Part shown: piece after piece, positions 269 to 63,531 of the stretch
Numbering within the stretch: the stretch's first letter is position 1
Layout: each line of letters opens with the position of its first letter
Origin: Pontibacter sp. G13
GTDB lineage: Bacteria > Bacteroidota > Bacteroidia > J057
Reading direction: 5' to 3'
DNA: 64,000 bases
NCBI RefSeq assembly: GCF_031851795.1
Contig: NZ_CP134696.1
Location: 4,298,501 to 4,362,500, forward strand
The notes under the pieces: generated by a model
Database searches by the model: none
What the model was told of the DNA's origin: nothing
Seen by the model: the letters and a program-made list of their open reading frames with translations, nothing else
Translations under genes and position numbers: made by a program

Positions 269-490
269 ATTTGGGGGTATCCCGACGTGCTTGGCAGGAA
301 GATCTTCCCAGTGGGATCAGTCGTCGGGTCGCTCCCTTTCGTGCTCCGCTGCCGCTTCGGTCGGTGAGCGGTACGGCGGAATGATCTTGATTGGGAGGTC
401 TACTTGATCTTTTGAACCTGGCAGATTGATCTAGGCTCACCGACTACCCCTTCAGGCAGCTTACCCCCCACGGGCCATCCGCACACAAAA
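269..490 (+). repeat. Dispersed intergenic repeat, copy A
   Basis: The 337-base stretch between aroQ and the 3' end of pdhA holds no convincing gene. It carries a copy of a family seen four times in this window. The copy opens with ATTTGGGGGTATCCCGACGT, continues through GC-rich text with CGGGTCGCTCCCTTTCG and CGCTTCGGTCGGTGAGCGGTA, and ends with GGGCCATCCGCACAC just before the pdhA terminator. Compare copies at 15259, 51473 (minus strand) and 63299. The ends are better conserved than the middle. Function is unknown. Confidence 0.6.
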
Positions 491-5192: not shown

Positions 5193-6704
5193 CTACCAGC
5201 TAAAACTGTAGGAAGCATTCATTCCACGTTCATAGAGACCTTTGATGGTGACATATTCTCCTGAAGTCGCCAATTGGTCTTGCAAGTCTTCCAGGCTTTC
5301 AATCCTTTCACCATTGATGGAGGTGATGACAAACCCAGGGGCAATTTCGTGCTCGGCCATTTGTTCGCCGACCTCCAAGATGACGGCTCCGAAGTTGATG
5401 CCCAATGCTTCCAATTCCTCTTCAGAAGCAGCGCGGAAACGATTGCCTTCGAATTCTACCTCCACGGCTAGTTCTGGATTCACTCGGGAAGATCTAGCAG
5501 TAGCTAATTGCTTGAGCGGTACTTCAAACTGTAATTCATGACTTCCTCGAAACGCCAGAATCGTGACCAGATCACCCGGACGGTAACGACTGACTTGTTC
5601 TTGCAGTTCGGAGGAATTATTCACCTCCCGCCCATTGACGGAGACGATCACATCCCCAATCATCAGCCCAGCTTCTGCGGCGCCCAATGCAGGATCGAGT
5701 CTAGAAACATACGCGCCCTTGAGGGTACTCAGATCATATTGTTTGGCCAATCGAGCATCGACAGGCTGAATGGAAACGCCCAAAAAGCCTCTGCGCACTT
5801 CGCCATAGGTCAGCAAGTCTTCCATGACTTTCCGAGCGATCGAAGCTGGAATCGCAAAAGAATAACCTGCATAGTATCCCGTGCGAGATGCAATGGCAGT
5901 GTTGATCCCAACGAGTTCCCCGTCGATATTGACCAGTGCGCCGCCGCTATTCCCTTTGTTGACAGCTGCATCCGTTTGGATGAAGGATTCGATGGCGTAT
6001 TCGGAGTCATTTCGAAGCAGGTTGATATTTCTTCCTTTGGCACTGACGATCCCCGCAGTAACGGTTGAGGTCAGGTCCATCGGGTTGCCCACTGCGAGTA
6101 CCCATTGGCCTACCTTTACTTGGTCAGAATTCCCAAAAGGCAGGAAAGGCAATTGTTCGCCTTCGATTTTGAGCAGTGCCAAATCCGTACTGATGTCTGT
6201 ACCAATGACTTTGGCGGGAAAAGAGCGATTGTCGAATAAGGTGATCTCGACTTCGTCCGCATCCTGAATGACGTGATTGTTGGTGACAATGTATCCATCT
6301 TCGGAGATCAATACCCCAGATCCGGAAGCCACCCCTTGGGGAACATCCATCATGTCATCATCGAAGAAATCGCGAAAAGGATTGCTGAAAAAATCCGCTT
6401 CGCGACGCTGGGACTTTGCATTGTACTGGGAACGGATGTGAACTACCGCGGGTCTGGCAGATTCGGCTGCAACGACAAAATCAGGGAGTTCGCCGGGAAC
6501 AGCCATTCTCGAGGTCGAGCTGGTGGTTTGAGGTCGGCTTGGGGGATTTTCGTACCGCGAAAAAGTGGCGGGAATCGGCTCCTTGGGTACATAGACGTAT
6601 TCTGGCCCGAAGAAATAGGCATACATACCTGCTCCAACCAGAGACCCTACGAGGATCAGGAGAAACCCAATGCCGAATGAGAGGAAGAGTGTCTTACGAG
6701 ACAT
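5193..6704 (-). CDS. Periplasmic HtrA/DegP-type serine protease with two PDZ domains
   Basis: A 503-residue trypsin-fold protease of envelope quality control. Counting from the ATG at 6704, the catalytic triad is His144 (TNNHVI), Asp174 (STDLALL) and Ser253 (NKGNSGGAL). An N-terminal hydrophobic segment (residues 5-30) acts as a signal anchor, followed by a Pro/Ser-rich linker. Two PDZ domains follow the protease: the first starts near RRGFLGVSIQPVDAR and the second is a shorter, more divergent C-terminal one. A GTG two codons upstream is an alternative start. The substrate and the choice between DegP and DegQ/DegS names cannot be decided from sequence. Genes on the other side are divergent, with a 268-base shared upstream region. 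Confidence 0.92.
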   Translation of the reverse strand: MSRKTLFLSFGIGFLLILVGSLVGAGMYAYFFGPEYVYVPKEPIPATFSRYENPPSRPQTTSSTSRMAVPGELPDFVVAAESARPAVVHIRSQYNAKSQRREADFFSNPFRDFFDDDMMDVPQGVASGSGVLISEDGYIVTNNHVIQDADEVEITLFDNRSFPAKVIGTDISTDLALLKIEGEQLPFLPFGNSDQVKVGQWVLAVGNPMDLTSTVTAGIVSAKGRNINLLRNDSEYAIESFIQTDAAVNKGNSGGALVNIDGELVGINTAIASRTGYYAGYSFAIPASIARKVMEDLLTYGEVRRGFLGVSIQPVDARLAKQYDLSTLKGAYVSRLDPALGAAEAGLMIGDVIVSVNGREVNNSSELQEQVSRYRPGDLVTILAFRGSHELQFEVPLKQLATARSSRVNPELAVEVEFEGNRFRAASEEELEALGINFGAVILEVGEQMAEHEIAPGFVITSINGERIESLEDLQDQLATSGEYVTIKGLYERGMNASYSFSW

Positions 6705-6972
6705 ACACACAAATTATGGCTTACAGGGATATAGACCTATCCCCAAAATTGGGCCGATTTGCCCGTGTTGATTTTGCTATTCAACGAAAATTGGAAGGCC
6801 ATTGATCAAAAAAATACGCATCCGCGCTAAAACCTACAAGCTTATCTCGGCCAATTGCATGACTTTTGGCCTTTTTCTGTTAAATTTTAGGTTCACTGAA
6901 ATGTTTTCCCATTCTGGAAACCCTTTTGCCCAACACGGGTATTTATTCCCATACACCGCATAACCTCAACCC

Positions 6973-8214
6973 ATGAACGAAACACTGGATTTCCAACGCC
7001 TCGATGAACTACATCAACTCCTGCAAGATCGAGAGCTGAGCCTCTTCTCCCGAAGACTGTTGGACCTGATCTCCGATTTTCCCCAGGAGGTGAATTTCCG
7101 TACCGAAGCCATCATGCTTCGCGCCAAGTACAACGAATACGCCTCCCGTGAAGCTTCTCAGCAATCCCCCCTCGATTTCGAAGATATGCTCGAAGCGGGA
7201 AGTGCCCTTCTGGTGCGTTTGGAGGAGTTTCTCCCAGAAATTCCCGATGATGTGTTGATGGCGATGGATTCTAATCTGCCTTTTGATCGTCCCGTGTTTC
7301 ACGGCAAAGGCCTTTCCAAAACCTTCAAGACCCGAAGCCACACATTCCAACTCCCTAAAGCAGATGTTAGGCTCAACCCCGGCGAGATCACCGGAATCGT
7401 GGGGGAAAACGGCAATGGAAAAACGACCCTGATGCGAATCATTGCGGGAAGTTTACAGGCAGATGCAGGAAGTTTAAGCTATTGGGGAAAGGATCATGCA
7501 GATTGGGGATGGTATGAAATCAAACGGAAGCTCGCCTTCATTCCTCAGCATCTGGAACCTTGGACGGGTTTGCTAAAAGATAATCTCCATTTCTCCGCGG
7601 CCATTCACGGGATCAAAGGCGCCGAAAACGAGGATTTGGTAGACTATGCGATTCACCGGCTTGGACTCAGCCAGTACGAGCACTCTACCTGGAAAGAGAT
7701 TTCTTCCGGCTACAAATTGCGCTTTGAACTGGCACGTGCATTGGTTCGTCGCCCTTCCCTCCTGATCATCGATGAGCCACTGGCCAATCTCGATATCAAT
7801 ACCCAGCAGATTTTCCTGCAAGATCTCCGATATATTGCTGATAGCCATTCGCAGCCTGTGAGCATCTTGGTGAGTTCCCAGCACTTGCACGAGATCGAAA
7901 GTATTTCCGACAATCTCCTCTTCATCAAGTCTGGCGAACTACTCTACAACGGACCCACCTCCGAATTCGGCCAGGACCGCACCGAAAACCTCTTTGAGCT
8001 TGAGACTAGCATGGACCGAGCTGAAGTGGAGCAACGACTGGCACATCTCGAAGGCGTGAGCTTCAAATCTGCGGGCTCCAAAATCCTGATTGCTGCACCG
8101 CTGGACATGACCATTCCCCAACTGATGGGCGAACTAGCTCAGCAAAACATCCCCGTCCAGTACTTCCGTGACATTTCCCAATCTACGCTCAAGCTTTTCC
8201 GAGACAACGCATAG
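6973..8214 (+). CDS. ABC transporter ATP-binding protein with extra N-terminal domain
   Basis: A 413-residue protein whose ABC ATPase core starts near residue 108. Walker A GENGNGKT is at 144-151, a degenerate signature SSGY (in place of LSGGQ) at 244-247, Walker B LLIIDEP near 263-269 with catalytic Glu268, and the H-loop His at 304. Before it lies a helical domain of about 95 residues containing IMLRAKYNEY and a charged helix. This loosely resembles the small effector-associated helical domains of Bacteroidota, but I cannot confirm the link. About 85 residues after the core form an alpha/beta accessory region. It is the first gene of a co-directional array of seven paralogous membrane proteins starting 18 bases downstream, so it probably energises them. 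Substrate and transport direction are unknown. A weak promoter match (TAAATTTT, 6881-6888) lies 84 bases upstream of the start codon. Confidence 0.85.
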   Translation: MNETLDFQRLDELHQLLQDRELSLFSRRLLDLISDFPQEVNFRTEAIMLRAKYNEYASREASQQSPLDFEDMLEAGSALLVRLEEFLPEIPDDVLMAMDSNLPFDRPVFHGKGLSKTFKTRSHTFQLPKADVRLNPGEITGIVGENGNGKTTLMRIIAGSLQADAGSLSYWGKDHADWGWYEIKRKLAFIPQHLEPWTGLLKDNLHFSAAIHGIKGAENEDLVDYAIHRLGLSQYEHSTWKEISSGYKLRFELARALVRRPSLLIIDEPLANLDINTQQIFLQDLRYIADSHSQPVSILVSSQHLHEIESISDNLLFIKSGELLYNGPTSEFGQDRTENLFELETSMDRAEVEQRLAHLEGVSFKSAGSKILIAAPLDMTIPQLMGELAQQNIPVQYFRDISQSTLKLFRDNA

Positions 8215-8232
8215 ACGGTAAACGTTAAAGCT

Positions 8233-9054
8233 ATGATTCTTTGGAAAGTATGGGCCCCTTTGCGGAGTTGGTACCATTTCCTTCTCATCTATCACCCACA
8301 GCTTTGGGCCACTCGCGTGTTACATGCAGGGCTTTACTGGTTGATTTCCCTTGTAATGGGAATGCTTGTAGGGATGCAATTTGAGATCTGGGAAGGTGAT
8401 ACTCCTTACTATGTCGTGCCTGCCTTGGTGGCCATTGTCGGATGGATCTTCGCTTGTTATCCCTTTCGAGTGTATGCGCTCATTCGTCAAATAGGCACTC
8501 CGGAAACGATAGGGTTTGGGCCAATCTCAGGTATGGTGATCATGGCATATGTCATTCAAAGCTGGATGCTGATGTACGTCTTTGATCCCGGCCTTTCAGG
8601 TCAGGTAATTGAAATCCTTAGTATTCCCAGCACTGTCGGAATGGTGATTTGGGCGTGCCTACAATTTCTGTGGCGGTCAACATTTTCCAAGATGATGCTA
8701 GGTTGGGGGATCGGGTTAATTTGGACTTTGCTAGCGCTGATGCCCCCAATTGCTTGGGTGTCGCTTCTGGTGCTACACGCGATGTTGGCTTCAAGTCCCT
8801 ACGAACATGGAGGTACTCCCAAAAATGGATTTGCGGATCGCCTGTTTTTAGGAATGATTTGGGTGATGTGGTCTGTGGTTATCGCTCAATTCGCCTTCTT
8901 CTTTGCAGAGGTGATGAAGACTGGAAGAGTTATGCAATTCGAGACCAACATGACGATGGCCATTGCAGGATTTTTGATCGGTGGAGGACTCACTTATCAT
9001 GGGCTAGTGAAAAAGCGCTTGGCTGCATGGTTTCTTCATCCGAATAGGAAATAG
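8233..9054 (+). CDS. Array membrane protein 1 (putative ABC-associated permease)
   Basis: A 273-residue, highly hydrophobic protein with about seven or eight predicted membrane segments. It opens with the motif shared by all array members, here FLLIYHPQLWATRVLHAG (general form LL-x-x-x-P-x-LW-x-x-R-x-H). A hydrophobic pair ending in an aromatic/basic run (CYPFRVYALIR) follows. It begins 18 bases after the ABC ATPase gene. The C-terminus is short and basic (KKRLAAWF). Family membership beyond this window is not recognised. A permease role is inferred only from topology and the ATPase next to it. Confidence 0.75.
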   Translation: MILWKVWAPLRSWYHFLLIYHPQLWATRVLHAGLYWLISLVMGMLVGMQFEIWEGDTPYYVVPALVAIVGWIFACYPFRVYALIRQIGTPETIGFGPISGMVIMAYVIQSWMLMYVFDPGLSGQVIEILSIPSTVGMVIWACLQFLWRSTFSKMMLGWGIGLIWTLLALMPPIAWVSLLVLHAMLASSPYEHGGTPKNGFADRLFLGMIWVMWSVVIAQFAFFFAEVMKTGRVMQFETNMTMAIAGFLIGGGLTYHGLVKKRLAAWFLHPNRK

Positions 9055-9073
9055 TCTATATGAATCGACCGAC

Positions 9074-9175
9074 ATGAAATATCTGAAAAATCTTCCCAGG
9101 TATTCCCTATTTCAAAGGATCGAGCATCATCTCCTGATTCACCACCCGTCTATAAATGGCCCATATTTCCCATGA
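9074..9175 (+). pseudogene. Broken array copy (N-terminal remnant)
   Basis: A 33-codon reading frame between array genes 1 and 2. It encodes MKYLKNLPRYSLFQ followed by HHLLIHHPS, closely matching the first 25 residues of array proteins 2 and 3, then ends at a TGA where they continue LW-x-AR-L-H. In the next frame the text reads MAHISHEQV, which lines up with MARLHVAG of array protein 3. A one-base shift therefore seems to have broken the gene, and the remaining 250 or so codons are missing. It could still be translated as a short peptide, but decay after duplication explains it best. Confidence 0.7.
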
Positions 9176-9204
9176 GCAAGTAATTTTAAGTTCATCTCAT
9201 TCCC

Positions 9205-10068
9205 ATGAAAAACACTTCCCTCCCTGGATACTTGCTATTCCAAAAATGGTCTCAACATCTTCTGACCCATTATCCAACTATTTGGGGCGCTCGACTGCAT
9301 GTTGCGACGGTCGCCTGGGTATTGGGAATGATTGGGTATTTCGTCCTGTTGTTCACTCTAAAGCCGTTGGAATTCATCCCCTTTCATCTGGCCAACGTTC
9401 CGCTTCTCATCGGATTATTGTTCTGGATGATAGATCGAATTCGGTGGCAGGGAAATCTCAATCAGGGAATCAGGTCATCCTTTGTGACTGGGGGTTTACG
9501 ATTGCTTACTCTTCTTGCATTCACGCTTCCGATGGCGCTCGCTTCTGGAGGCTGGGGGATTGAAAATAGGATGTTGCTGACCAATCCATACGCACTTTGC
9601 CTATTGGTTTTTTGGATGTCGATGGAAGCAAATTGGATGTTTTTGAGCTTTGTCGTGTTGTACATGGCTGGAATTTATCTGTTTGCTGATTTTATACTCA
9701 CTGAATCCGGTGAGCGCATGATACCTTTCCCTTTGGCTGAAGTAGATTCTTCATGGACAGGTATTATCCTCCTTTCAGTTCTCATGGCCATGAACTTGAT
9801 TCGTGGTAAACTTTTCCCCTCGAAGAAACAGGACCATGCTCCAGTTTCTGGCAAACGTAGAGGCAACATATTGCTAATGTCAATTTGGTACGGAGCCGCT
9901 TGTGTTGTTTTTGTGTTGGTGGATTTGATCCATTTCTACGCATTTGACCTTCAGCTTCTTTCGTCAGGGCAATTGATCGTGATTTGGACCATTCCATTTT
10001 TGCTAGCCTATCGAGCTACCTTGGAGAGTCCCAAAGATGTAAATTCTGATCCCCAAACCTATCGATAA
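9205..10068 (+). CDS. Array membrane protein 2
   Basis: A 287-residue integral membrane protein with about eight hydrophobic segments. The shared N-terminal motif is HLLTHYPTIWGARLHVATVAW. The second hydrophobic hairpin reads PLLIGLLFWMIDRIRW. Near the C-terminus it has the family's IPFLLAYRA segment. It is most like array protein 3 in both motif regions, suggesting a recent duplication. It follows the broken copy and ends 4 bases before array gene 3. No catalytic or metal-binding motif is seen. Function is unknown; an ABC permease subunit or a membrane sensor are both possible. Confidence 0.75.
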   Translation: MKNTSLPGYLLFQKWSQHLLTHYPTIWGARLHVATVAWVLGMIGYFVLLFTLKPLEFIPFHLANVPLLIGLLFWMIDRIRWQGNLNQGIRSSFVTGGLRLLTLLAFTLPMALASGGWGIENRMLLTNPYALCLLVFWMSMEANWMFLSFVVLYMAGIYLFADFILTESGERMIPFPLAEVDSSWTGIILLSVLMAMNLIRGKLFPSKKQDHAPVSGKRRGNILLMSIWYGAACVVFVLVDLIHFYAFDLQLLSSGQLIVIWTIPFLLAYRATLESPKDVNSDPQTYR

Positions 10069-10072
10069 GACC

Positions 10073-10942
10073 ATGAAATTTTCCTCCACGTTTCCCGGTT
10101 ATTCGCAGTATCGACGGATATCCCATCACTTGCTCATCCATTATCCACAGCTCTGGATGGCTCGACTCCATGTTGCAGGGGTGGCTTGGATTCTGGGAAT
10201 CATCGGCTTTTTCGGCGTAAATATGCTGCTGGATTCCCTGGGAGCCGCCATTGAGGATTGGTCCTATGCTCGAATACCTCCCTTGGCCATTGGATTGATG
10301 TTTTGGTTGTATGATGCCTACCAGTGGCGCGCATACAAATTGGCCAAATTGGGGCATGGACCCCGGAATTGGACCATTGGATTGGTTCATCTTGGGATTA
10401 TTCTGGCTTTCGGAATCCCCATAATCTTGGCCTATCGTCAGGAAGAGGGTATCATGCCAGTGTTCCTTGATCTGGATATTTGGAGCTTGTTTGGGGTGTG
10501 GCTGGCATGGGAATTTGTGAATTTCGGGGTCTTGTTGAAGTGGATCCTAACTATAGGGGTTATAGGCTTTATCGAATTGATCCTGATCGCTCTTACAATA
10601 GTACCTTCCTTTTGGGCTGGTGGAGAAAACGTGTTTTTGTTATTCGCAACCATCAACATTTTGCTCCATTTGGGACTGATCGTGAATGCTTCGAGAATAG
10701 CTGACAAATTGAAGATGGATGCTCCCAAAAGGATTGGGCTGGGCATACTGTGGGTGACTATTGGCATCATTGGGAATCTCTCGATCACAACGGTTTTGGA
10801 AACCCAAATTGCCTTGGGGATACTACCTGAATTTGCCCCATGGCTAAGCCTCCTGTTGTTCCCAGTGCCTTTCGTGTGGATGTATTATGTGATCGGATTC
10901 AAAAAATTGTGCGAATGGCTAGTGGCTCCTAAGAAGAAATAA
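10073..10942 (+). CDS. Array membrane protein 3
   Basis: A 289-residue integral membrane protein starting 4 bases after array gene 2. The shared motif reads HHLLIHYPQLWMARLHVAG, then hydrophobic segments including LAIGLMFWLYDAYQWRAY and the C-terminal FPVPFVWMYYVIGF. A Lys-rich tail (APKKK) follows the last membrane segment. About eight membrane spans are predicted by eye. It is the closest relative of array protein 2 and of the broken copy at 9074. Tight spacing on both sides supports one operon. No known domain is recognised. Confidence 0.75.
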   Translation: MKFSSTFPGYSQYRRISHHLLIHYPQLWMARLHVAGVAWILGIIGFFGVNMLLDSLGAAIEDWSYARIPPLAIGLMFWLYDAYQWRAYKLAKLGHGPRNWTIGLVHLGIILAFGIPIILAYRQEEGIMPVFLDLDIWSLFGVWLAWEFVNFGVLLKWILTIGVIGFIELILIALTIVPSFWAGGENVFLLFATINILLHLGLIVNASRIADKLKMDAPKRIGLGILWVTIGIIGNLSITTVLETQIALGILPEFAPWLSLLLFPVPFVWMYYVIGFKKLCEWLVAPKKK

Positions 10943-10957
10943 ACAACTCCACCTATC

Positions 10958-11815
10958 ATGAAAACCCTCAACCCGATCTCGCTATTCAAGGCATTCTCCC
11001 ACAATTTACTGATTAACTATCCTGTACTCTGGATGCTCAGGCTCCCTACGGCCATCATTGCTTGGGCATTGAGTTTAGTGGCCAAAATTGGACTTTTGAG
11101 GTACGACTTTGAATGGTCGTATTTTTCTGGAATGGTGATAGATCTGTCAGATATTCCCTTTCTTTTAGGGCTGATATTTTGGGGATATGAATCCTTTCGA
11201 TGGCGAATTTTCAGCACATCTCATGGGGCCTTGGTTCCCGTCAACGGCGCATTTGGACTTTATCAATTTTTGATCATTTGGGCATTTATGCTTCCGCTGT
11301 TTTCCATAGATATCTTGGTGGATAGATCCCTAGATGCCTCTGGTGATCATTGGATAGTTTCCATTTGGTTAATGCTCCTGTGGATGACTTGGCAGATGGT
11401 GAATATGCTAACCCTGAAGGATCTACTTCATGGAATATTGGTGTACATGGTTCCAATAGCCGGGGTGTATTCCTTAATCGAATTACTTGAATGGGCTTCG
11501 GACAATTGGTTGATGCAGGTGGGAATTGTGCTAGCCTATATACTTGCATTGGGGGTTTGGGGAAAGAATGCCTTATTTTCTAGGGTGAGCTTTCGGTTAG
11601 GCTGGGGGATGTTCTTGTGGTTATTGCTTCTCGTACTTAGTCTTTTGGGAAGTTTTATTCTGGAACTCTGTTCATTTTTCCTAAATGAGTTCATGTCGCT
11701 TGATCAGCCAATAGATTTTTCAGCCATTCTGTTTCCAATTCCCATGCTATTGATATTTCGATATGCTGGGTTCCGAGTGATGCATTATTTCTTTTGTAAA
11801 CCGAGGACCTCCTGA
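10958..11815 (+). CDS. Array membrane protein 4
   Basis: A 285-residue integral membrane protein that starts 15 bases after array gene 3. The motif is HNLLINYPVLWMLRLPTAI, with Pro where the other members have His. It continues with IPFLLGLIFWGYESFRWRIF and ends FPIPMLLIFRYAGFRVMHYFF. Eight or so membrane segments are apparent. The short inter-span loops leave little outside the membrane. It has no recognisable catalytic motif. Same strand, spacing and architecture as its neighbours point to duplication inside an operon. Confidence 0.75.
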   Translation: MKTLNPISLFKAFSHNLLINYPVLWMLRLPTAIIAWALSLVAKIGLLRYDFEWSYFSGMVIDLSDIPFLLGLIFWGYESFRWRIFSTSHGALVPVNGAFGLYQFLIIWAFMLPLFSIDILVDRSLDASGDHWIVSIWLMLLWMTWQMVNMLTLKDLLHGILVYMVPIAGVYSLIELLEWASDNWLMQVGIVLAYILALGVWGKNALFSRVSFRLGWGMFLWLLLLVLSLLGSFILELCSFFLNEFMSLDQPIDFSAILFPIPMLLIFRYAGFRVMHYFFCKPRTS

Positions 11816-11824
11816 GCATACGCC

Positions 11825-12721
11825 ATGAAGACAGCAGAATTCAACCCTTTATCAGACAAGCTTTGCGCTCAAAGGCTCATTTGCCGCCATCCCTACCTTT
11901 GGGCTTCGGGGATATTTGATGCAGGGTGGCTATGTGTTGGATTGGGGATTGTGAATATGTCGATTCTGTGTTTGGCCGATCAGTATTCCATAGATCTCTT
12001 GCTCAGGCTCGAAATTGCCCTGTGCGTGACAGTTTTGATCTACAGCTGCCGAATCTATCCGAGAAGGTTATCCCGACTGCAAGGAGATGGACTCCTTCTC
12101 AATGATAACCATTCCGCATGGTTGAGGATGGGCGCCATTGTGACTTTTGGGGTAATGACGATTTTATCCATACAAGTTGGGGAAGCGGTTTTCGGTCTTG
12201 AAATTCCGTTTTGGAGTACCCCCATTAAGGGGCCTAATCCAGCATTTGAACTGTTGCAAATCCTTTCCGTTTCAATCGCGATTATCGAAATCCTCAATAT
12301 CTCCAATCTTGCTGGCCTTGTATGGATGATTTTTTTGTTGGTAGCAGCAATTGCACTGAATTGGGGTTTATTTTTAATGCTAGACGGCTTCGTCAGCCAA
12401 CAGGGCGAAGGTTCGGGTATCGCAAATTTCCGTTTGATTCTGATGGCGTTGCAAATTGTCTGCTGGATACTTCTAGCCAAATTTGTTCAAAAAGGCCAGA
12501 GAATTAGACATGCGTTTCCCGGCATATTTTCAGTTCCTACCTTTTTCTCGGGAATAGTATTGTTGTTTGTAATATTTAGGATCATTGATTTATTAGGGGA
12601 GGTTTATGATTTCTGGGGAATTGGAATACCCTCTCTGGTGTATGTCGTTCCCATTCTATTATGGCACAGAGTTACAAGGCCCATCATAATCCAGCACCTC
12701 CAGACCCCTCTACCACTTTAA
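11825..12721 (+). CDS. Array membrane protein 5
   Basis: A 298-residue integral membrane protein starting 9 bases after array gene 4. It belongs to a subgroup with array protein 6: both lack the Arg-x-His end of the N-terminal motif (here RHPYLWASGIFDAGW). Both also have a Tyr-Pro-Arg-Arg loop (YPRRLSRLQGDG) followed by a D/N-N-x-S-A-x-LRMG segment, an IEILNISN/LEILNVSN helix and a C-terminal VPILLWH. About eight membrane spans are predicted by eye. Function is unknown. Confidence 0.75.
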   Translation: MKTAEFNPLSDKLCAQRLICRHPYLWASGIFDAGWLCVGLGIVNMSILCLADQYSIDLLLRLEIALCVTVLIYSCRIYPRRLSRLQGDGLLLNDNHSAWLRMGAIVTFGVMTILSIQVGEAVFGLEIPFWSTPIKGPNPAFELLQILSVSIAIIEILNISNLAGLVWMIFLLVAAIALNWGLFLMLDGFVSQQGEGSGIANFRLILMALQIVCWILLAKFVQKGQRIRHAFPGIFSVPTFFSGIVLLFVIFRIIDLLGEVYDFWGIGIPSLVYVVPILLWHRVTRPIIIQHLQTPLPL

Positions 12722-12733
12722 ACCAGATACTCC

Positions 12734-13639
12734 ATGAATACCTCAAATCCATTTTCCCTTGCTCGCCCATTTCGAGCCCGCAATCAAAAGCAAATTACCC
12801 AGCGTCCCTATCTTTGGGCGGCGGCGGTCCCTGAAGGGGTTTTGCTCTGTCTGGGTTTACTGGTGATCAATGCCGTGATGATCTTCATGACGGATATTTC
12901 TTACTATGACCTGAAGGATTTTATACCCGTGACTATGGGGTTTGCGATCTTGGGATATCTATTCATCAGTTATCCCAGACGACAAGCGCAACTCGACAAA
13001 ATGGGGCTCCACATCGATGACAATCGATCTGCGAGCCTGCGAATGGGCGTGATGATGGGATTCTGCATGATCGCGCTGGTGTCCCTGTTCATGATGGTGA
13101 GTGTTCATCGTCCTGAATATTTCGATTCGAGTTTCAGGACGATGATGAATAGAATTGACGAACCACTGGGTATGGTTCTCGTCATCTTATCAATTTCTAT
13201 CGCGATTCTTGAAATCCTCAATGTCTCCAATTTTGTCTCGTTGATGATTACGGTCGGACTTGTGGTGCTTTCTGCTTGTGTCGCGGGGTTGTCCTTTGCC
13301 TTGGCGGATGTCATTCATCTTGGACTAGGGCGCGCGATAGGGTTTACTATGATCGTAATCGTCCCTTTGAATGTATGGCTGTGGATCGCTTTGGGGCGCG
13401 TGGCCTTTCGGAAGGCTCGATTGAGAGCAGCTTATCCGGGACTGGTATTCATTCCTGCCTTCTTTTCAGGATTGATTTTGTTTGGATTTGGGGCCATGCT
13501 CGTTCAATGGGCAAATGCTCACCCAAAGATTGAGGCCGAGGAAATTGCCCTGCTCATATTCGGAGTCCCCATTCTGGTTTGGCATTTTTTCAGCCGTCCT
13601 CACCTGATCAAAAAACTCCGAGAGCCAGCCAAGGCCTAG
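12734..13639 (+). CDS. Array membrane protein 6
   Basis: A 301-residue integral membrane protein starting 12 bases after array gene 5 and its closest paralogue. Shared marks are RPYLWAAAVPEG near the N-terminus, YPRRQAQLDKMG, DDNRSASLRMG, ISIAILEILNVSN and FGVPILVWHF near the end. The N-terminal tail before the first span is longer and rich in Arg/Gln (RPFRARNQKQ). After this gene the tight spacing ends: 201 bases separate it from array gene 7, with no clear terminator or promoter in between. Confidence 0.75.
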   Translation: MNTSNPFSLARPFRARNQKQITQRPYLWAAAVPEGVLLCLGLLVINAVMIFMTDISYYDLKDFIPVTMGFAILGYLFISYPRRQAQLDKMGLHIDDNRSASLRMGVMMGFCMIALVSLFMMVSVHRPEYFDSSFRTMMNRIDEPLGMVLVILSISIAILEILNVSNFVSLMITVGLVVLSACVAGLSFALADVIHLGLGRAIGFTMIVIVPLNVWLWIALGRVAFRKARLRAAYPGLVFIPAFFSGLILFGFGAMLVQWANAHPKIEAEEIALLIFGVPILVWHFFSRPHLIKKLREPAKA

Positions 13640-13840
13640 TATTATCTCCAATGTCCTCAGATCAGATGATCTTCTTTGACAGACATCTGATACTGTGTTG
13701 AAATAGAACTTATGCAATCCAGAAGGATTTGTTATCTTGAGGGTAATCAATCCCATTTCTGTCTCACCCTTGTATCTTCCTTCAACTGATCCCGTTATGG
13801 GGGAAACCCCTATTTGATACAACATCTCAATTGTACCTCC

Positions 13841-15190
13841 ATGAATCGATTCTTCTCATCCTTCGCGCCTGCCTTCCTGAAGCGTTGGGACAGCGCCCTA
13901 CTCATGAACTACCCCAGACTATGGGCTGCCCGTATCCACATCATTGGACTGGGATTGGCACTCATGGCCATCGGTCTTGTCAAGGTCTATCTCCTGACAC
14001 CGGTCAGTACGCATAGTGTTCCCACGTTGGATGAGCCTCATTATCTGTTGGCGTGGATTCCTGCGGGATTGATTTTGCTGTATTGGGGCTGGGGGGTATA
14101 CCAGTACCGCACAGGTCGACTCAATCTCCAAGGGTTCAAAGTCCAACAATTTGGACACGAACTCATGCAATTGGCAGTAGTGGTACTCTTGGCTTTCTCT
14201 CCGCTCCTGTGGTTCAACATGGTCGGCCAGAAGGTCAATGACCGTCTCAGTAAAGACGATTTGGTACAAGCCGAGAAAGATCTCGAGATGGCCGCCCCCA
14301 TCATGAATCGCATCATGGTCCTAAATGCTTCGCACGAGACTGGGACGCTTGACGACTATGTGGGAGGATTGAACATCCGCTACCACGAATTGGAGGAGTT
14401 GGCTTGGGTTGAGGAGTACATGAAGGAATTTGATGCAGGTAAGAACTCCGGACGCCAACCATTGGGGATGGAAGCGGCACAGGCATTTAATCGATTCATC
14501 CGAAACTTCACAGATTACAAGGCTGATTTCATTCCTGTTTCTAGCCAGACCATCCTCGTCAATGGCTCTGCACCTGTTGCTCATGGGGGCCAACGAAATG
14601 TGCTCCTTGAAGCAGCTGAGAACTTCGAGCGTCTTGAGAACTGGCTCGCCCATGGTGATAATGCCTACTCTACGAGCGTTTACTTTAGCAATAGCTATTC
14701 CTCACATGGATTCAAAGACGATATCTGGCCGGTATTCCTGATTGTTGGATTAATCGGTTGGATGCTGTTCCAAATGCTCATGGTCTCCCATATCCGGGTG
14801 ATCCTGATTGCTGGTGTGTCCGCATTCGTGGTAGTCATCGGCGCGGCCATGGCCTCCAGCCTCGGTAAGTGGGCTTGGCAAGATCGTCATGCAGCCGAAA
14901 GCTTGTATCTGTTCGCCATTACCGCGATCGCTTTGGCGTTGGCATTTTCCAATAAGCGCACTCCCAAGTGGAATACTACCAAGCGCGTGGCCATCACATT
15001 GGTATTGGGCTTTATGCCGCTGTACTTCCTGATTTTGGGTGAATTCACGGATATTGACTTGTTCGCTAGCCAACACTTGGGCAAGGAAGAATACCAGATC
15101 TACGGTGGTGTGGGTACCATGCTCGCACTTTGGTTTGGGGTATTCCGTTGGCAACTACAGGGCATGCAAGTACGTCCTCAGGCAGTTTAG
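13841..15190 (+). CDS. Array membrane protein 7, long form with an extracytoplasmic domain
   Basis: A 449-residue member of the same family, half as long again as its neighbours. The N-terminus carries the shared motif (LLMNYPRLWAARIHIIG), two spans and a loop ending YQYRTGRLNL, then a third span. A hydrophilic stretch of roughly 150 residues follows (from about VNDRLSKDDLV to SSHGFKDDIW), probably outside the cytoplasmic membrane. Five or so more spans end the protein. The in-frame TTG at 13814 was rejected in favour of the ATG at 13841, which gives an N-terminus like those of the other members. The large loop could bind a ligand or partner. A strong terminator follows 21 bases after the stop. 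Confidence 0.75.
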   Translation: MNRFFSSFAPAFLKRWDSALLMNYPRLWAARIHIIGLGLALMAIGLVKVYLLTPVSTHSVPTLDEPHYLLAWIPAGLILLYWGWGVYQYRTGRLNLQGFKVQQFGHELMQLAVVVLLAFSPLLWFNMVGQKVNDRLSKDDLVQAEKDLEMAAPIMNRIMVLNASHETGTLDDYVGGLNIRYHELEELAWVEEYMKEFDAGKNSGRQPLGMEAAQAFNRFIRNFTDYKADFIPVSSQTILVNGSAPVAHGGQRNVLLEAAENFERLENWLAHGDNAYSTSVYFSNSYSSHGFKDDIWPVFLIVGLIGWMLFQMLMVSHIRVILIAGVSAFVVVIGAAMASSLGKWAWQDRHAAESLYLFAITAIALALAFSNKRTPKWNTTKRVAITLVLGFMPLYFLILGEFTDIDLFASQHLGKEEYQIYGGVGTMLALWFGVFRWQLQGMQVRPQAV

Positions 15191-15211
15191 CCATATTGAA
15201 AAATATCCAAA

Positions 15212-15249
15212 GGGCCGTCTCTTGACATGGGAGATGGCTCTTTGCTTTT
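15212..15249 (+). terminator. Terminator of the ABC/membrane-protein array
   Basis: A 10-bp stem with two G-U pairs (GGGCCGTCTC with GAGATGGCTC), a 9-base loop and then TTTGCTTTT. It sits 21 bases after the stop codon of array gene 7. Confidence 0.8.
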
Positions 15250-15258
15250 GGGTTCATG

Positions 15259-15430
15259 ATTTGGGCGTGCCCCAGCGTGCTTGGCCTATGTGACTCCGCT
15301 TGACTGGATTGTCGCTGGGTCAGGCCCTTACAGGCTCGCTGATCGCTCGGTCTCTCCGCGAGCTCCGAGACTTCGGCTACGCCTCACCTTCCAGGCCCTT
15401 CACGCCACACAAGCCAGCCGCACACCAAAA
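15259..15430 (+). repeat. Dispersed intergenic repeat, copy B
   Basis: It begins ATTTGGGCGTGCCCCAGCGT directly after the array terminator and ends GCCAGCCGCACACC. The inner text has GGCTCGCTGATCGCTCGGTC, which closely matches the reverse complement of copy C at 51473. The 315-base stretch between array gene 7 and the Omp85 gene otherwise holds two terminator-like hairpins and no gene. Confidence 0.65.
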
Positions 15431-15468
15431 TCCATCATCTCCCTCGTTTTGCTCCCCCCAAAATCACA

Positions 15469-15490
15469 CCTGCCTTCTGGCGGGTTTTTT
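15469..15490 (+). terminator. Terminator-like hairpin
   Basis: CCTGCC pairs with GGCGGG (one G-U pair) around a TTCT loop and is followed by six T residues. It lies 15 bases upstream of the Omp85 start codon. It may be a second stop for transcripts from the left or a leader attenuator. I cannot tell which. Confidence 0.55.
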
Positions 15491-15505
15491 GTAGGTTCAT
15501 CCCCA

Positions 15506-17278
15506 ATGCGGAAATGCTGGATCTTTTGGCTGCTATGCCTGCTTTCGACGGCTCAATGCATGGCACAGGATACTCTTCCACCTTGGCGATCTCCCAAGGT
15601 GGTGGAAGTGTCCGGCGTTCCCGACAGGCAGCTCTCCAAATCCATCCGGAAATCCTTTTTCCAATCCACTTCTCCCATAGATCGCAGTCGGCAATTTCAG
15701 GATTGGGCAGAGGACATGCGCGGAGAAGGGTATTGGGAATTTTCCTTTGTAGATTCCACTCGGCAGGGCGATTCGGTGCACGTTCATTTCCGATCAGGAC
15801 CCCGGTATGTACTGGACCGATTGGAACTTCCCGGACTCAGTGAAGCTTACCTTAAACGCATCGAACAAGACAAGCTCACCCGCAAAAAAGGAGGGCTCGA
15901 TTGGACAGATCTGGAAAATCGTCTGAACTTCGTCGTCTCTGATCAGCAAGACCGAGGGTATCCATTCGCTCAATTTTCGGGTTTACAGCTAGATTTTGAT
16001 GCAAGGAACGCCGATACGACAGGCGTCTCCGTACGATTTCCGTTTTCCTCGGGGAGCTTGGTGACCATTGACAGCATCCGATTTCAGGGCAGCCATCGTG
16101 AACGGGAATCCTTCATCTACAACCTGATGAACATTCAGCCCGGCGATGTATTCGATCAATCGACCATCGATGCGATTCCGAGAGCATTGAACAATTCCAT
16201 TTATTTCCAAAATGCCCAGCCCGCTACGGTGTATTTCACTCCTTGGGAAACTGCCATCATAGACGTCAAGCTGGAACCCCGCAAAGCTGGAAAGTTTGAT
16301 TTACTCGTGGGATTGTTGCCCCCTTCCACGGATTCCGCCAATTTCGAATTTACCGGAACCTTGGATTTGATGCTGGTGAGTCCATTTAGATTCGGAGAGA
16401 TCTTGGAGATCAAGTATGACAAATTGACTTCATCTTCGCTTCAAGCAGATATCCGGGTGCTGGTTCCATACCTGTTGCGTACTCCCCTCAAATTGGGCGG
16501 AGAGTTCCATTTGCTCAAACAGGAGGAAGATTTCCTCAATGTCGATTTCTCTGGCGAGGTGATCTATCAGTTTACGCCGGACCTGTTGGCGCGATTTGCC
16601 ACCACGGTGTCTACTTCCCGACTGCTCCCTGATGCCTCCAACGATACCACCAATCTCCAACCCGAGCAGTTAGATGCCAATCGGCTCACCTTTTGGGGCG
16701 GAGTGGCATTTGACAATTTGGACTACCGGTGGAATCCCACTCGGGGGTTGAGGATTCGGTTGGATGGCGGGATTGGCTCGAAAACCATCTTCGTCAATCC
16801 CAATCTAAACCCCGAGATCTATGCCGATATCAACCTAGATCAACCTACACAAGAGGTGATGTTTGAGTTTGATGGATTCATTCCGCTTGGCAATCGACAT
16901 GTCCTGCATGGAGCCAATCGCAGCTATGTCCTCAACATGGAGGATTACTTTCGGACAGATCAGCTACAGGTGGGAGGCGCAAGGAGCATTCGAGGATTCA
17001 ATGAGAATGAGTTTTTTACGGATTTGATGCTGTTCTTCTCTGGAGAGTATCGATTTCTGCTGGAGCGCGACTCCTATCTCGTGGGTTTCATCGACTATGC
17101 CTATCTCCGAGATCGCGTGGCAGACGATATCATCAGACCTTTGGGGGTGGGGATCGGCATGAATTATGGCACAAAGGCGGGAATCGTATCCATTTCTTAT
17201 GCCGTAGGACAAACGGCCGACATCCCATTCAATCCTGCCCGCGGAAAAATCCATATTGGATTCCTGAATCAATTTTGA
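15506..17278 (+). CDS. Omp85/BamA-family outer-membrane protein
   Basis: A 590-residue beta-barrel protein of the Omp85 superfamily, which inserts or exports proteins at the outer membrane. A signal peptide is clear (MRKCWIFWLLCLLSTAQCMA, then QDTL). An N-terminal half with POTRA-like alpha/beta repeats follows, including VTIDSIRFQGSHRERESF. The barrel carries the diagnostic loop-6 motif as GGARSIRGFNENEF near residue 494 and ends in a C-terminal Phe (HIGFLNQF), the usual outer-membrane assembly signal. It is shorter than BamA (about 800 residues), so a TamA-like or accessory Omp85 is more likely. The much longer open frame starting at 15281 was rejected because it runs through a repeat and lacks a signal peptide. 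Confidence 0.85.
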   Translation: MRKCWIFWLLCLLSTAQCMAQDTLPPWRSPKVVEVSGVPDRQLSKSIRKSFFQSTSPIDRSRQFQDWAEDMRGEGYWEFSFVDSTRQGDSVHVHFRSGPRYVLDRLELPGLSEAYLKRIEQDKLTRKKGGLDWTDLENRLNFVVSDQQDRGYPFAQFSGLQLDFDARNADTTGVSVRFPFSSGSLVTIDSIRFQGSHRERESFIYNLMNIQPGDVFDQSTIDAIPRALNNSIYFQNAQPATVYFTPWETAIIDVKLEPRKAGKFDLLVGLLPPSTDSANFEFTGTLDLMLVSPFRFGEILEIKYDKLTSSSLQADIRVLVPYLLRTPLKLGGEFHLLKQEEDFLNVDFSGEVIYQFTPDLLARFATTVSTSRLLPDASNDTTNLQPEQLDANRLTFWGGVAFDNLDYRWNPTRGLRIRLDGGIGSKTIFVNPNLNPEIYADINLDQPTQEVMFEFDGFIPLGNRHVLHGANRSYVLNMEDYFRTDQLQVGGARSIRGFNENEFFTDLMLFFSGEYRFLLERDSYLVGFIDYAYLRDRVADDIIRPLGVGIGMNYGTKAGIVSISYAVGQTADIPFNPARGKIHIGFLNQF

Positions 17279-17329
17279 TATTGTGTAATTTGGCTACCCA
17301 GCGAGCGATATTCGCAGCCTGTACCCAAT

Positions 17330-18397
17330 ATGGAACCTCAAAAACTCTACATCCACGCCCGATGTCCACAATGTGGAAGCCAGCTGAAATTTGCCGGGGG
17401 AAAGCGCAAGCTTCAATGTACCAAGTGCAAGTATAGCCGAGATCTTGGTAGAGTAGGGGATCAGGTGCAGGCCAAATCGCTAAAGGCGGGCGTATCAGTC
17501 AAGCACTTTGAAAGAGGACTTGGGCCGGGGTTCAAATCCTATCAATGTGGAGGCTGCAAATCCGTCATTGCCATTCACCATCCAACACCAGAAACTCCAC
17601 CTCCCACTCATTGCCCTTTTTGTGAGGGCACTTCCCTAGAGGAAACCGATCGCCATGAGCAAGTGCTTCAGCCTTATTCCCTGGTCCCGTTTATGCTATC
17701 TCAGGCAACAGCCGCTTCGATCTTGACCAAATGGTTGAAAGCTGGGCCACCGATGTTGCCAAACGAAATTCTGGAGATTACAGGCAAGGAACGTCTCAGG
17801 CCTGTGTTCATGCCATTCTTCATGTTTGATAGCTTGGCTCGGACCACTTGGAAGGGCGAGATGGCCATCAAGTATTTACAGAAAAAGGGAAAAGGAGTAG
17901 AGGAGAAAAAAGCTTGGGAGCCAACCAAAGGGTTCTTGGAGCACTTTTTCGATGATTCATTTGTGCTGGCTACGGCTGGAGGAGGGGGGGAATTCCGCAG
18001 CGTGAGCTCGTATCATTTCCGGAAGTTGGTTCCCTTCGATCCGGGCTATCTAGGAGATGGATTCGTGGAGTGCTATCAGAAAGATGAGCTGAAAGGATTC
18101 GAAGAGGCCGAAAAATTCATGAATGGTCAGATCGAGGGAGCCGTCAGGCGGAGCATCAAGAGTCGTGAGTTGAAAGACCTCAAGGTCACCAATGAGTATA
18201 CTTCGATCTCTTTTCGGCATGTGTTGGTCCCAGTATGGGTGGCATCTTACACCTACCGAGGGCACCGTTTCCAATATTTTGTCAATGGACAGAATGGAAA
18301 AGTGTCAGGAGCCAAACCGATTTCATTTCCCAAGATATTCGCAGTGGTCGGTACCATCACGGTCCTCACCTTGGGGCTCGTTTGGCTCCTGTCTTAA
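17330..18397 (+). CDS. Zinc-ribbon protein with C-terminal membrane anchor
   Basis: A 355-residue protein of unknown function. The N-terminus has a zinc ribbon (CPQCG at about residues 13-17, CTKC near 30-33). A second Cys pair follows further on (CGGC near 73-76 with CPFC near 98-101). The middle, about 200 residues, is soluble alpha/beta with aromatic-rich strands (PVFMPFFMFDSLARTTWKG, LVPVWVASYTY). A single hydrophobic segment closes the protein (IFAVVGTITVLTLGLVWLL), so the body probably faces the cytoplasm. It resembles proteins annotated as TFIIB-type zinc ribbon proteins, often found near membrane-stress genes, but no role is established here. Confidence 0.65.
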   Translation: MEPQKLYIHARCPQCGSQLKFAGGKRKLQCTKCKYSRDLGRVGDQVQAKSLKAGVSVKHFERGLGPGFKSYQCGGCKSVIAIHHPTPETPPPTHCPFCEGTSLEETDRHEQVLQPYSLVPFMLSQATAASILTKWLKAGPPMLPNEILEITGKERLRPVFMPFFMFDSLARTTWKGEMAIKYLQKKGKGVEEKKAWEPTKGFLEHFFDDSFVLATAGGGGEFRSVSSYHFRKLVPFDPGYLGDGFVECYQKDELKGFEEAEKFMNGQIEGAVRRSIKSRELKDLKVTNEYTSISFRHVLVPVWVASYTYRGHRFQYFVNGQNGKVSGAKPISFPKIFAVVGTITVLTLGLVWLLS

Positions 18398-18411
18398 TGC
18401 CCGTTTCAGAC

Positions 18412-19149
18412 TTAGCTGTGCTTTTTGTTGTACTCGGTAATCAGATCGAGGGCACCTTCGTGCTTGTAGATCTCATTTCCGACAACTACCTCATGTACAC
18501 CGATTTCAGCGAGCTTGTCGACATCTTCCCAAGAATCGATCCGGCCGGAAGCGGTGATGATCGCATTGGGATAATCCGCACAGATACGCTTGTAGAATTC
18601 GAAGTCAGGCCCTTTTTCTCGATCCTTGACGTCACTTTCTGCGAAGATGAATCGATGGAAACCAATAGCCATAGCCTGTTTGATCATCTCATCGAGTTTG
18701 CCTTCGGGTTCCTTCTGCGTCCAAGTATGGCTGTAGAGGTCTCCATTCAGCAAGTCGAGGGCGATCATGATTCGGTCATTGGGAACGTGATCCGCAGCAG
18801 CAATCTCTTCGAGGAATGGAATGTTGTCGTACATCGCGGCCCCAATCACAAAGTAGTCGACTCCCGCATACTGGAGACTTTTGAGCAGGTCCAAGTTATT
18901 GATCCCACCGCCGAGCTCCACACGTGAAACCGCGGTGTTGGCGAGCGAGCCGATCAAGGCCGTGTTGTTCTGTTTGTGATGCAGAGAAGCATCAATGTCG
19001 ACTAGGTGAATCCGCTTGATTTTTTGCTGGTTGAGGTCCTTGATGATGTCGTATGGATCTTGGTCAAGGAACTCGGTGTTTTGGTGGTCACCGGGTCTGT
19101 AAGCAGCAGCTTTGCCGTCTTTGATATACAGGGCAGGAATTATCTGCAT
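18412..19149 (-). CDS. HisA-like TIM-barrel protein lacking a catalytic Asp
   Basis: A 245-residue (beta/alpha)8 protein related to HisA, the isomerase acting on ProFAR in histidine synthesis. Both phosphate-binding half-barrel signatures are visible: VELGGGINN near 77-85 and ASGRIDSW followed by VVVGNEIY near 200-228. The second catalytic Asp is present (Asp132, IALDLLNG). The first, Asp8 in the usual PAIDL strand, is Tyr here (PALYI, Tyr8). The gene is not near other his genes. It may be a paralogue with another substrate or a non-catalytic protein. The ATG at 19149 starts the first barrel strand, so the longer frame to 19236 was not used. It is convergent with the zinc-ribbon gene. Confidence 0.78.
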   Translation of the reverse strand: MQIIPALYIKDGKAAAYRPGDHQNTEFLDQDPYDIIKDLNQQKIKRIHLVDIDASLHHKQNNTALIGSLANTAVSRVELGGGINNLDLLKSLQYAGVDYFVIGAAMYDNIPFLEEIAAADHVPNDRIMIALDLLNGDLYSHTWTQKEPEGKLDEMIKQAMAIGFHRFIFAESDVKDREKGPDFEFYKRICADYPNAIITASGRIDSWEDVDKLAEIGVHEVVVGNEIYKHEGALDLITEYNKKHS

Positions 19150-51472: not shown

Positions 51473-51692
51473 CTAGGTGTGGTTGGCAGGTGTGGCGTGA
51501 GGTGCCTGTAGGGTTCAGTCGGTGGGGTCGCCTTGTCTCCGAAAGGTCGAACTTCCCAAGCTTCTTTGCATGTAGTTGGATGGCGATGTTCTCCACCGAC
51601 CGAGCGTTCCAGCGAGCCCGAAAGGGACCGACCTCGCGACCAAATTGCCAAGCAGGAACAAACCTCTCAGCACGCGAGGGCACGCCCAAATA
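51473..51692 (-). repeat. Dispersed intergenic repeat, copy C
   Basis: Read on the minus strand it starts ATTTGGGCGTGCCCTCGCGT, contains GGCTCGCTGGAACGCTCGGTCGG and ends ACGCCACACCTGCCAACCACAC, so it is in reverse orientation to copies A, B and D. The 368 bases between the EF-G-like gene and arcA hold only this repeat and the terminators on either side. Confidence 0.65.
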
Positions 51693-62775: not shown

Positions 62776-62795
62776 ATTTGACAACGCTTAGCAAG

Positions 62796-63122
62796 ATGAC
62801 TATACAAGAAGCTCAACAGACCGTCGACAAGTGGATCAAGGAGATCGGCGTCAGATATTTTTCCGAACTCACCAATACCGCTATGCTCATGGAGGAAGTG
62901 GGCGAGGTGGCGCGTATCATGGCCCGCCAGTATGGTGAGCAATCCTTCAAGAAGTCAGATGAAGCGGTGAACCTCGCGGACGAGATGGCGGATGTCCTCT
63001 TTGTCTTGATTTGTCTCGCCAATCAGACGGGTATCGATCTGGAGGATGCGTTGCGCAAGAATCTGGACAAAAAGACCAAGCGCGATGCCACCCGCCACCA
63101 GGAAAACGAAAAATTGAAATAG
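62796..63122 (+). CDS. MazG-like nucleotide pyrophosphohydrolase
   Basis: A 108-residue all-alpha NTP pyrophosphatase. The metal-binding E-E-x-x-E pattern is in AMLMEEVGEVARIM and the E-x-x-D pair is in LADEMADVLFVL. The ATG at 62796 gives the common MTIQEAQQTVDKWIKEIG start. The much longer frame from 62430 lies antisense-like inside the glycosyltransferase gene in another frame and was rejected. It probably hydrolyses NTPs or dNTPs, cleaning up damaged nucleotides. Confidence 0.84.
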   Translation: MTIQEAQQTVDKWIKEIGVRYFSELTNTAMLMEEVGEVARIMARQYGEQSFKKSDEAVNLADEMADVLFVLICLANQTGIDLEDALRKNLDKKTKRDATRHQENEKLK

Positions 63123-63256
63123 TCTCCCAGTGGTTTTCCACACGTTAGGAACGGGGAATTGTCGCGGGTTTCGCCAGACCTCCTTTTGCGAATCGCCGCC
63201 GTTATGTAGATGATTATGAACCCAATTCCTACACTTAGAGACGTGTAAAGAACGAG

Positions 63257-63289
63257 GGACCCAAGCCTTTCTGGATGGGTCCTTTTTTT
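63257..63289 (+). terminator. Terminator downstream of the MazG-like gene
   Basis: GGACCCA pairs with TGGGTCC around a 12-base loop and is followed by seven T residues. It lies 134 bases after the MazG stop codon. Confidence 0.8.
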
Positions 63290-63298: not shown

Positions 63299-63531
63299 AT
63301 TTGGGGGGTGCCGCGGCGAGCTTGGGATTAGGTTCCCGCTTGGGCAGAGGATCGCCGCGTCGGGCTGTTCATGGGGTCGCTTTGCTCCGTCCTCGGAAGG
63401 TTGACGGGGTTTGAACTGCGGCTTCTCCAAAGCTAGGATTCGGCTTGACTGCAGATCGCGCTGGCTCGGACTGCTCGTGAACTCGCACCATTACCATCCC
63501 TCACCCCGCACCCAGCCATCCGCACGTCAAA
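63299..63531 (+). repeat. Dispersed intergenic repeat, copy D
   Basis: It begins ATTTGGGGGGTGCCGCGGCG directly after a terminator and ends CCCAGCCATCCGCACGTCAAAA. Both ends match copies A, B and C; the middle differs more. The 545 bases between the MazG-like gene and the VanZ-like gene hold only this repeat and the terminator, followed by AT-rich text before the next start. Confidence 0.6.

Follow-up and report, generated by a model that had tools for sequence, protein, structure and literature searches.

A high-copy intergenic repeat family of Pontibacter sp. G13 with a covarying three-way-junction fold and arms that may be exchanged between copies

The 64,000-nucleotide stretch of Pontibacter sp. 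G13 DNA analyzed here as a whole, called the window below, harbors four members of an intergenic repeat family, designated A to D. All four were found by a covariance model (R1) within a few bases of the ends given in an earlier note on this DNA, which confirms the four-copy family described there. R1 was trained on 34 copies, with the four window copies among them. Copy A occupies positions 269..486 of the forward strand (218 nt, ATTTGGGGGT ... GCCATCCGCAC) and scores 130.1 bits with an E-value of 4.8e-39, as a training copy. An ORF ends at 208, 60 bp before this copy, and a convergent ORF on the reverse strand (546-1571) lies 59 bp beyond it. Copy B (15259..15425, forward strand, 167 nt, 144.6 bits) is of a short subtype and follows the end of a forward ORF (13814-15190) at a distance of 68 bp. 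Copy C is on the reverse strand (51475..51691, 130.6 bits), 80 bp behind a gene end. Its convergent neighbors carry, according to Pfam, elongation factor G domains (49280-51403, forward) and an arginine deiminase family assignment (51772-53235, reverse). Copy D (63299..63527, forward strand, 136.9 bits) is located 176 bp behind an ORF with a Pfam MazG domain (62430-63122, forward) and is directly preceded by a hairpin and T-run at about 63256-63289 that reads as terminator-like. The location just behind a gene end or terminator, as noted earlier, thus holds for the four copies. The element showed no coding capacity.

The expectation that four copies in 64 kb imply many in the genome was borne out. 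The exact 5′ pattern ATTTGGGSGTN{2,8}SSCGNGCNN gave 103 matches in the 7.67-Mb genome versus 1 for the reversed pattern, and the covariance model gave 199 matches at E ≤ 0.1 within 1.34 Mb of sequence from the same genome. The density of matches in the 1.34 Mb is biased upward because most stretches were picked around pattern hits. Extrapolation from four copies per 64 kb leads to an estimate of roughly 500 copies per genome, and about 500 also results from those matches that played no part in selecting the stretches. At least 150 candidates from this genome were scored, and all 150 match the covariance model. Both the chromosome-sized contig C1 and contig C3 carry copies. Their lengths cluster near 167, 189 and 215-230 nt, with two cut-off copies excluded, and just 8 of the 199 matches score below 70 bits in a model search that misses badly decayed copies. 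Later analyses used 196 matches, the three weakest being left out. Other abundant 16-mers in the stretches from this genome were GATTTATTCAGAATCT (35), GTCATTCTGAAAAATC (29), TGTCGCGCCTACAGCG (27) and a GTGTGG simple repeat, which possibly represent further repeat families.

The fold of each copy is a three-way junction: stem P1 joins both ends, and P2 and P3 form the arms. P1 consists of GGGSGTG paired with YACSCC at the element ends, so the conserved ends reported earlier appear on alignment as the two strands of one stem. The P2 hairpin adjoins P1, and P3 bears a long variable arm. In copy A the alignment and consensus fold place the P1 strands at 274..279 (GGGGTA) and 462..467 (TACCCC), the P2 strands at 281..287 (CCCGACG) and 322..328 (CGTCGGG), and the P3 strands at 331..343 and 448..460, all on the forward strand. 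The GC-rich middles are indeed variable, as the earlier note had it, but they are paired, structured arms rather than free sequence.

Support for this fold came from covariation. In a structure-free alignment of 34 copies (A2), 14 of the 21 pairs of the consensus fold showed double-sided changes; summed over the table, 130 cells were double-sided versus 2 one-sided. In alignment A4, the best 150 of the 199 matches fitted to the model, 98.1% of 3142 pair cells were paired versus 40-52% when the partner was slid by 1-3 columns. In these 150 copies 580 cells had changed on both sides versus 7 on one side, which provides the covarying base pairs that had been proposed as a check. Single-sequence folding gave an energy that was not below that of shuffled sequences in two of three copies tested. 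At gathering scores Rfam gave no matches in the window, and a permissive Rfam search of four loci returned mir-617 alone, far under its gathering score and on the opposite strand of one copy.

Structures that act at the RNA level normally tolerate G.U pairs. In the own-genome alignment G.T pairs occupied 7 of 3142 cells and A.C pairs 25 of 3142; in the phylum-wide alignment A6 (best 150 of 194 matches) the counts were 3 and 5 of 1932 cells. As a control, the acceptor stems of 15 tRNAs from the Pontibacter genome contained 5 G.T pairs in 105 cells. Covariation with G.U intermediates, the mark of structured RNA, is thus lacking at 7/3142 and 3/1932. Since RNA structures would normally tolerate G.U, we read the near-absence of G.T as selection acting on DNA. 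As far as sequence comparison can tell, this points to folded DNA, or both strands equally, rather than RNA as the level of selection. The scarcity of G.T could partly come from repair of imperfect palindromes in which one arm is copied from the other.

The placement of copies relative to genes was determined for the window and 60 longer stretches, which together hold 159 copies; our own rough gene calls allowed 143 of these to be classified. The remaining 16 consist of 11 without a called neighbor and five that overlap a called ORF, among them copy B, within which an ORF start is called. Of the 143 classified copies, 134 adjoin one or more gene 3′ ends: 71 lie between convergent and 63 between tandem genes, with the other nine in divergent gaps. 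For gaps of at least 150 bp (n = 394, including gaps lengthened by copies), the numbers were 85 convergent, 218 tandem and 91 divergent. Within tandem gaps 29 copies were co-oriented versus 34 anti-oriented, and a strict rule by which copies are co-oriented with the upstream gene and lie behind its terminator is not supported by these counts. Among the 100 copies faced by the gene end on their 5′ side, 43 had a terminator-like hairpin at most 110 nt ahead of them, and among the 105 faced by the gene end on their 3′ side, 29 were followed by one; the control value was 154 of 682 gene ends without a nearby copy. Counted over all classified copies, such hairpins occurred within 110 nt on the 5′ side of 44 and on the 3′ side of 30 of the 143, with 15 in at most 600 draws for a gene-internal control. 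The placement counts indicate a preference for gene ends and an avoidance of promoters, with no strict orientation rule.

The element has defined edges, [A]TTTGGG on the 5′ side and CCGCAC on the 3′ side, beyond which only weak preferences were seen (151 of 196 copies; the edge logos and the test for target-site duplication used copies that begin exactly with TTTG[GA]G[CG]G, which left out 45). Near-identical copies occupy unrelated but nearby sites, and their shared sequence has a sharp 5′ edge and a looser 3′ edge. In 11 pairs with at least 91.5% identity outside stretch L065 the match begins no more than 3 nt upstream and no more than 1 nt downstream of the element's first base. On the 3′ side, the eight pairs not cut by a stretch end match to -1, 0-2, 4, 6, 8, 13, 150-155 and 193-203 nt past the element. 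Unclean 5′ edges were found in two pairs of 88% identity, whose matches reach 9 and 26 nt into the upstream flank, and in two L065 pairs that match about 280 and 345 nt upstream within a segmental duplication. With L065 copies and copies shorter than 150 nt excluded, at least 90% identity was reached by 8 of 503 pairs within 60 kb versus 1 of 17075 pairs farther apart. Near-identity at unrelated sites fits transposition as much as conversion. The L065 region (6500-19000) is an array of direct repeats, 300 bp and 48 bp long, and carries eight element matches, some truncated. An integron-like array was considered here and rejected, as the region looks like a segmental duplication with copies carried along.

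Neighboring copies are mostly arranged tail-to-tail. This orientation was found for 23 of 27 neighbors less than 400 bp apart in the Pontibacter genome (L065 copies excluded) and for 44 of 46 neighbors less than 600 bp apart in the metagenome-assembled genome (MAG) SKYG108 (24 loci, 117 elements), where 23 of the 46 gaps measure 338-346 bp. In 10 aligned SKYG108 dyads the conservation spans from one outer TTTGGG end to the other. Furthermore, the ends of two tail-to-tail pairs in L071, 11 kb apart, look as if one pair were an inverted copy of the other. Another short palindromic repeat, of the GGATTTCGG...AATCCGGCTC type and with steps of about 44 bp, is packed between the members of several inward pairs (L071 6719-8447 and 18387-19325; by eye also in L010, L061, L072 and L084). 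Between inward pairs 0.4-3.5 kb apart, L065 excluded, the two longest ORFs were read by eye over their first 50 residues, and no transposase was recognized.

Target-site duplications, whose search had been proposed as a further check, did not occur above the shuffled level in 149 single copies and 27 dyads. In L061 a copy lies beside a 114-bp tandem array, the other end of which has a similar flank without the element. This is a candidate empty site but not a clean one, as a rearrangement of the tandem array is involved. The array (14847-16381) consists of 6.5 and 4.7 units and is interrupted by the element.

The arms of the junction behave as separate modules. Among 150 copies, linkage between alignment columns of different modules had a mean Z of about 0-1, against 3.3-8.4 within modules; P3a and P3b, which are parts of one arm, gave 3.5. 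The maximum Z for single column pairs was 8.1 for P1-tail, 5.0 for P1-P3a and 4.1 for P3a-tail. The modules thus assort nearly independently among copies. Two genomes of one genus, G179 and G339, in which the model finds 18 and 12 copies, allowed orthologous sites to be compared, and this single genome pair with nine loci constitutes the evidence for arm exchange. Aligned through the 5′-side flank, 9 of the 12 G339 elements have an ortholog in G179. In these pairs the core and a neighboring gene are retained while P2 or P3 is often unrelated. With the P2/P3 split redone for copies with a TCGTTCC arm, the orthologous arm was the closer one in 10 of 18 P2 and 9 of 18 P3 comparisons, and a paralogous arm was closer in the other 8 and 9, respectively. 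One hairpin type occurs in 5 of the 12 G339 elements and in none of the 18 from G179.

At individual loci the changes are often confined to one arm. P2 was replaced and P3 kept in C28:378105/C1:700018 and C25:196688/C21:174448. In C11:22125/C1:211751, C25:46401/C21:45337, C30:6984/C2:86873 and C38:14797/C25:124379, P2 was largely kept and the P3 hairpin replaced. Both arms were kept in C25:206951/C21:179704, and C26:194620/C24:127130 has compensating changes in a long P3 palindrome. The 300 bp after the element had diverged in six of the nine pairs (identity 0.52-0.62) and the 300 bp before it in one (0.57). A G179 copy beside a conserved gene is common to G339 and G255. At the same junction, 9 of 12 homologous loci had no model match, one of the nine having a copy about 0.8 kb away. 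Neither the tail-to-tail dyads nor the differing arms at orthologous sites had been foreseen in the earlier note.

The distribution of the element is patchy. A model tuned to the Pontibacter genome matched 7 of 40 genomes, its own included; among 12 other genomes of the same family it gave 32 matches in G009, one in G007 and none in ten. The phylum-wide model A5 detected the element in at least 41 of 296 sampled genomes (own included) and at least 20 of 140 genera, which are lower bounds due to strict filters. Among the matches listed in a named-contig scan the core is found in Bacteroidia and Chitinophagales MAGs, Schleiferia, Thermaurantimonas, Leeuwenhoekiella and Chryseobacterium, and also in one uncultured Treponema MAG of the Spirochaetota (L130 1527-1649 and 5345-5476; L197 7707-7846). 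Judged from sequence matches, relatives of the element occur across the phylum Bacteroidota; the Treponema copies could reflect horizontal spread or mis-binning. Phage carriage was rejected as a candidate, two viral contigs matching the 5′ pattern.

Among Y1 transposases and reverse transcriptases, no general partner enzyme emerged from the genomes that carry copies. Of 25 such genomes tested, each with at least one model or pattern match, 15 contained at least one Y1_Tnp match, the Pontibacter genome having two. The other ten, among which some assemblies are incomplete, gave none: G014, G020, G029, G035, G239, G255, G327 and the genomes of L124 (SKYG108), L130 and L156. SKYG108 is the densest genome sampled for copies. 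At 13 Y1 loci examined, an element lay within about 1.5 kb at the G034 locus (L113) only, so a RAYT or Y1 transposase is not supported as general partner. In L113 the element is found about 190 bp upstream of the matched Y1 domain (2037-2151 and 1411-1863), and this IS200-like transposase bears its own hairpins. A RAYT-like Y1 gene of the Pontibacter genome (L120 1061-2110, NHIH...YIHQNP) is flanked by GC-rich hairpins of another kind; its two flanks contained no 16-mer with at least three occurrences in the 1.34 Mb sampled. RVT_1 matches were present in 11 of 21 copy-bearing genomes and absent from SKYG108 and the Treponema MAGs, some assemblies again being incomplete. With 10 of the 21 lacking RVT_1, a reverse transcriptase (retroelement or group II intron derivative) is not supported as general partner either. 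Guide-like pairing of the element with its insertion site gave no signal, the best mutual information between flank and element (0.175) falling inside the range of 20 shuffled maxima (0.143-0.192). By eye, a possible match between element and insertion site can be seen for copy A.

Among known repeats, the element resembles the REP/BIME/REPIN group, with which it shares extragenic, high-copy, non-coding palindromes at the DNA level, often with inverted doublets as the unit, and a presumed single-strand dispersal. REP sequences are, by the accounts in PMC3116915, PMC2817692 and PMC6006769, single hairpins of 20-40 bp, mostly with a GTAG-type foot, whereas the element is a three-way junction of about 66-290 nt that has no such foot: the training copies are 164-288 nt long with TTTGGG at the 5′ end and CCGCAC at the 3′ end. 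Inverted doublets are over-represented as in REPINs (23/27 and 44/46 tail-to-tail), but a cognate, repeat-flanked RAYT gene does not regularly accompany the element (10/25 genomes without Y1_Tnp; 1/13 Y1 loci with an element). The Bacteroidetes subclass 2.6 transposases are described in PMC6006769 as accompanied by 'atypical secondary structures'. The gene of the Pontibacter genome that resembles this subclass has hairpins of another kind beside it; the family may overlap with subclass 2.6 structures in other genomes, which were compared by description. CGTC-tagged palindromic repeats have been reported from five phyla including Bacteroidetes and Spirochaetes (PMC3733652), and as described there they are small single palindromes, unlike a junction with P1 closing both ends. 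Hairpins of the GTCATTGCGA kind inside some arms (L136, L151, L175 and L102) may be CGTC-tagged repeats. The P3 arm also holds another repeat, of the GTCATTGCGAACGAAGTGAAGCAATCTC type, in L136, L151 and L175 (SKW94) and L102 (G035), as if repeats land in arms.

Pneumococcal BOX elements are built from the modules boxA, boxB and boxC in series, whereas the present element exchanges two junction arms and its family spans a phylum. The two are alike in being modular, mosaic, intergenic, structured and non-coding, as far as BOX is described in PMC3049150. Since it resembles REP/BIME/REPIN and BOX and departs from REP in size, foot and partner, we class the family with the bacterial interspersed mosaic repeats. 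It is non-autonomous and non-coding like MITEs, for example the IS982-derived MITE of Cardinium, also a member of the Bacteroidetes, as presented in PMC9769881, and its dyads have inverted ends. Unlike in MITEs, target-site duplication was not detected, inspection of ORFs by eye recognized no parent IS, simple terminal inverted repeats are lacking from single copies, and the internal structure covaries. Integron attC sites and IS200/IS605 ends work as folded single-stranded DNA, a likeness that the element would share. It differs from them in the 10 of 25 copy-bearing genomes without a Y1 match and in showing no guide-target covariation. Searches of the literature by sequence string and keyword, with most subscription papers and preprints outside their scope, gave no description of the family. 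A table in PMC12306157 names two Flavobacterium species, and overlap with the repeats of that paper is possible.

We consider the chances about even that the repeats are a mosaic, non-autonomous family of foldback DNA whose copies exchange arms by short-tract copying. For their movement we infer a mechanism in which the element folds on becoming single-stranded, most likely at replication, and the growing strand would switch at the junction to another nearby copy. It would copy an arm there, or the whole element with part of the 3′ flank, and then return. Such copying could spread arms, homogenize them within a genome, and occasionally seed or rearrange sites; copies would persist at gene 3′ ends because insertions are least harmful there. 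A DNA-processing enzyme may take part. A bolder form of this reading, which we regard as rather doubtful, is that the repeats form a phylum-wide class of selfish DNA without a transposase of its own: a self-folding three-way junction with interchangeable arms that would exploit template switching at replication forks, with spread and homogenization by copying between folded sites.

The alternatives share part of this evidence. The earlier note had suggested non-autonomous mobile elements or a structured RNA family, and mobility agrees with the near-identical copies at unrelated sites, the sharp left edge, the patchy distribution and the lack of coding capacity. The sharp TTTGGG edge of such copies, the dyads with inverted outer ends and the patchy occurrence would equally suit a classical non-autonomous element, with single copies or dyads moved in trans by a DDE or HUH transposase that recognizes the folded ends, comparable to REPINs and RAYT. 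The G034 copy near a Y1 domain and the Y1_Tnp matches in 15 of 25 genomes, two of them in Pontibacter, also speak for it. We nevertheless think a transposase of this kind somewhat unlikely in view of the ten genomes without Y1_Tnp, the single element-bearing locus among 13, the undetected target-site duplication and the different hairpins carried by the RAYT-like gene of this genome. The suggestion of structured RNA stood as regards structure, given the covariation, and was weakened as regards RNA, given the near-absence of G.U/G.T and of Rfam matches. A family of RNAs acting in 3′ untranslated regions or as small RNAs would have explained the compact, covarying multi-helix structure and the position behind gene ends, where terminator-like hairpins precede 43/100 copies compared with 154/682 control ends. 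The arms that are often unrelated between orthologs and the mixed orientation in tandem gaps (29 versus 34) add to the case against it and make it improbable.

A chromosomal service site selected at each position, like BIMEs between convergent genes, was weighed as well; it would act as a target of gyrase or nucleoid proteins, a backup terminator or an insulator. Convergent gaps hold 71 of 143 copies yet make up only 85 of 394 gaps of at least 150 bp, divergent gaps hold only nine copies, few matches (8/199) fall below 70 bits in a search that misses badly decayed copies, and the site is conserved between two species for 9 of 12 copies. Avoidance of promoters also accounts for the placement, however, and the site is shown to be dispensable by the lack of matches in 10 of 12 other genomes from the family of Pontibacter sp. 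G13, searched with the Pontibacter-tuned model, and of a copy at the same junction in 9 of 12 homologous loci. We give this explanation little chance.

If the mosaic foldback reading is right, a common non-coding feature of Bacteroidota genomes would be a family of DNA structures that is absent from Rfam and did not turn up in the literature searched, and annotators would be warned not to take such copies for small RNAs. The near-absence of G.T pairs could serve as a simple criterion for telling structures kept as DNA from those kept as RNA in other repeat families. The copies would furthermore form a natural record of arm-by-arm exchange, by which template switching during bacterial replication would become measurable through ordinary genome comparison.
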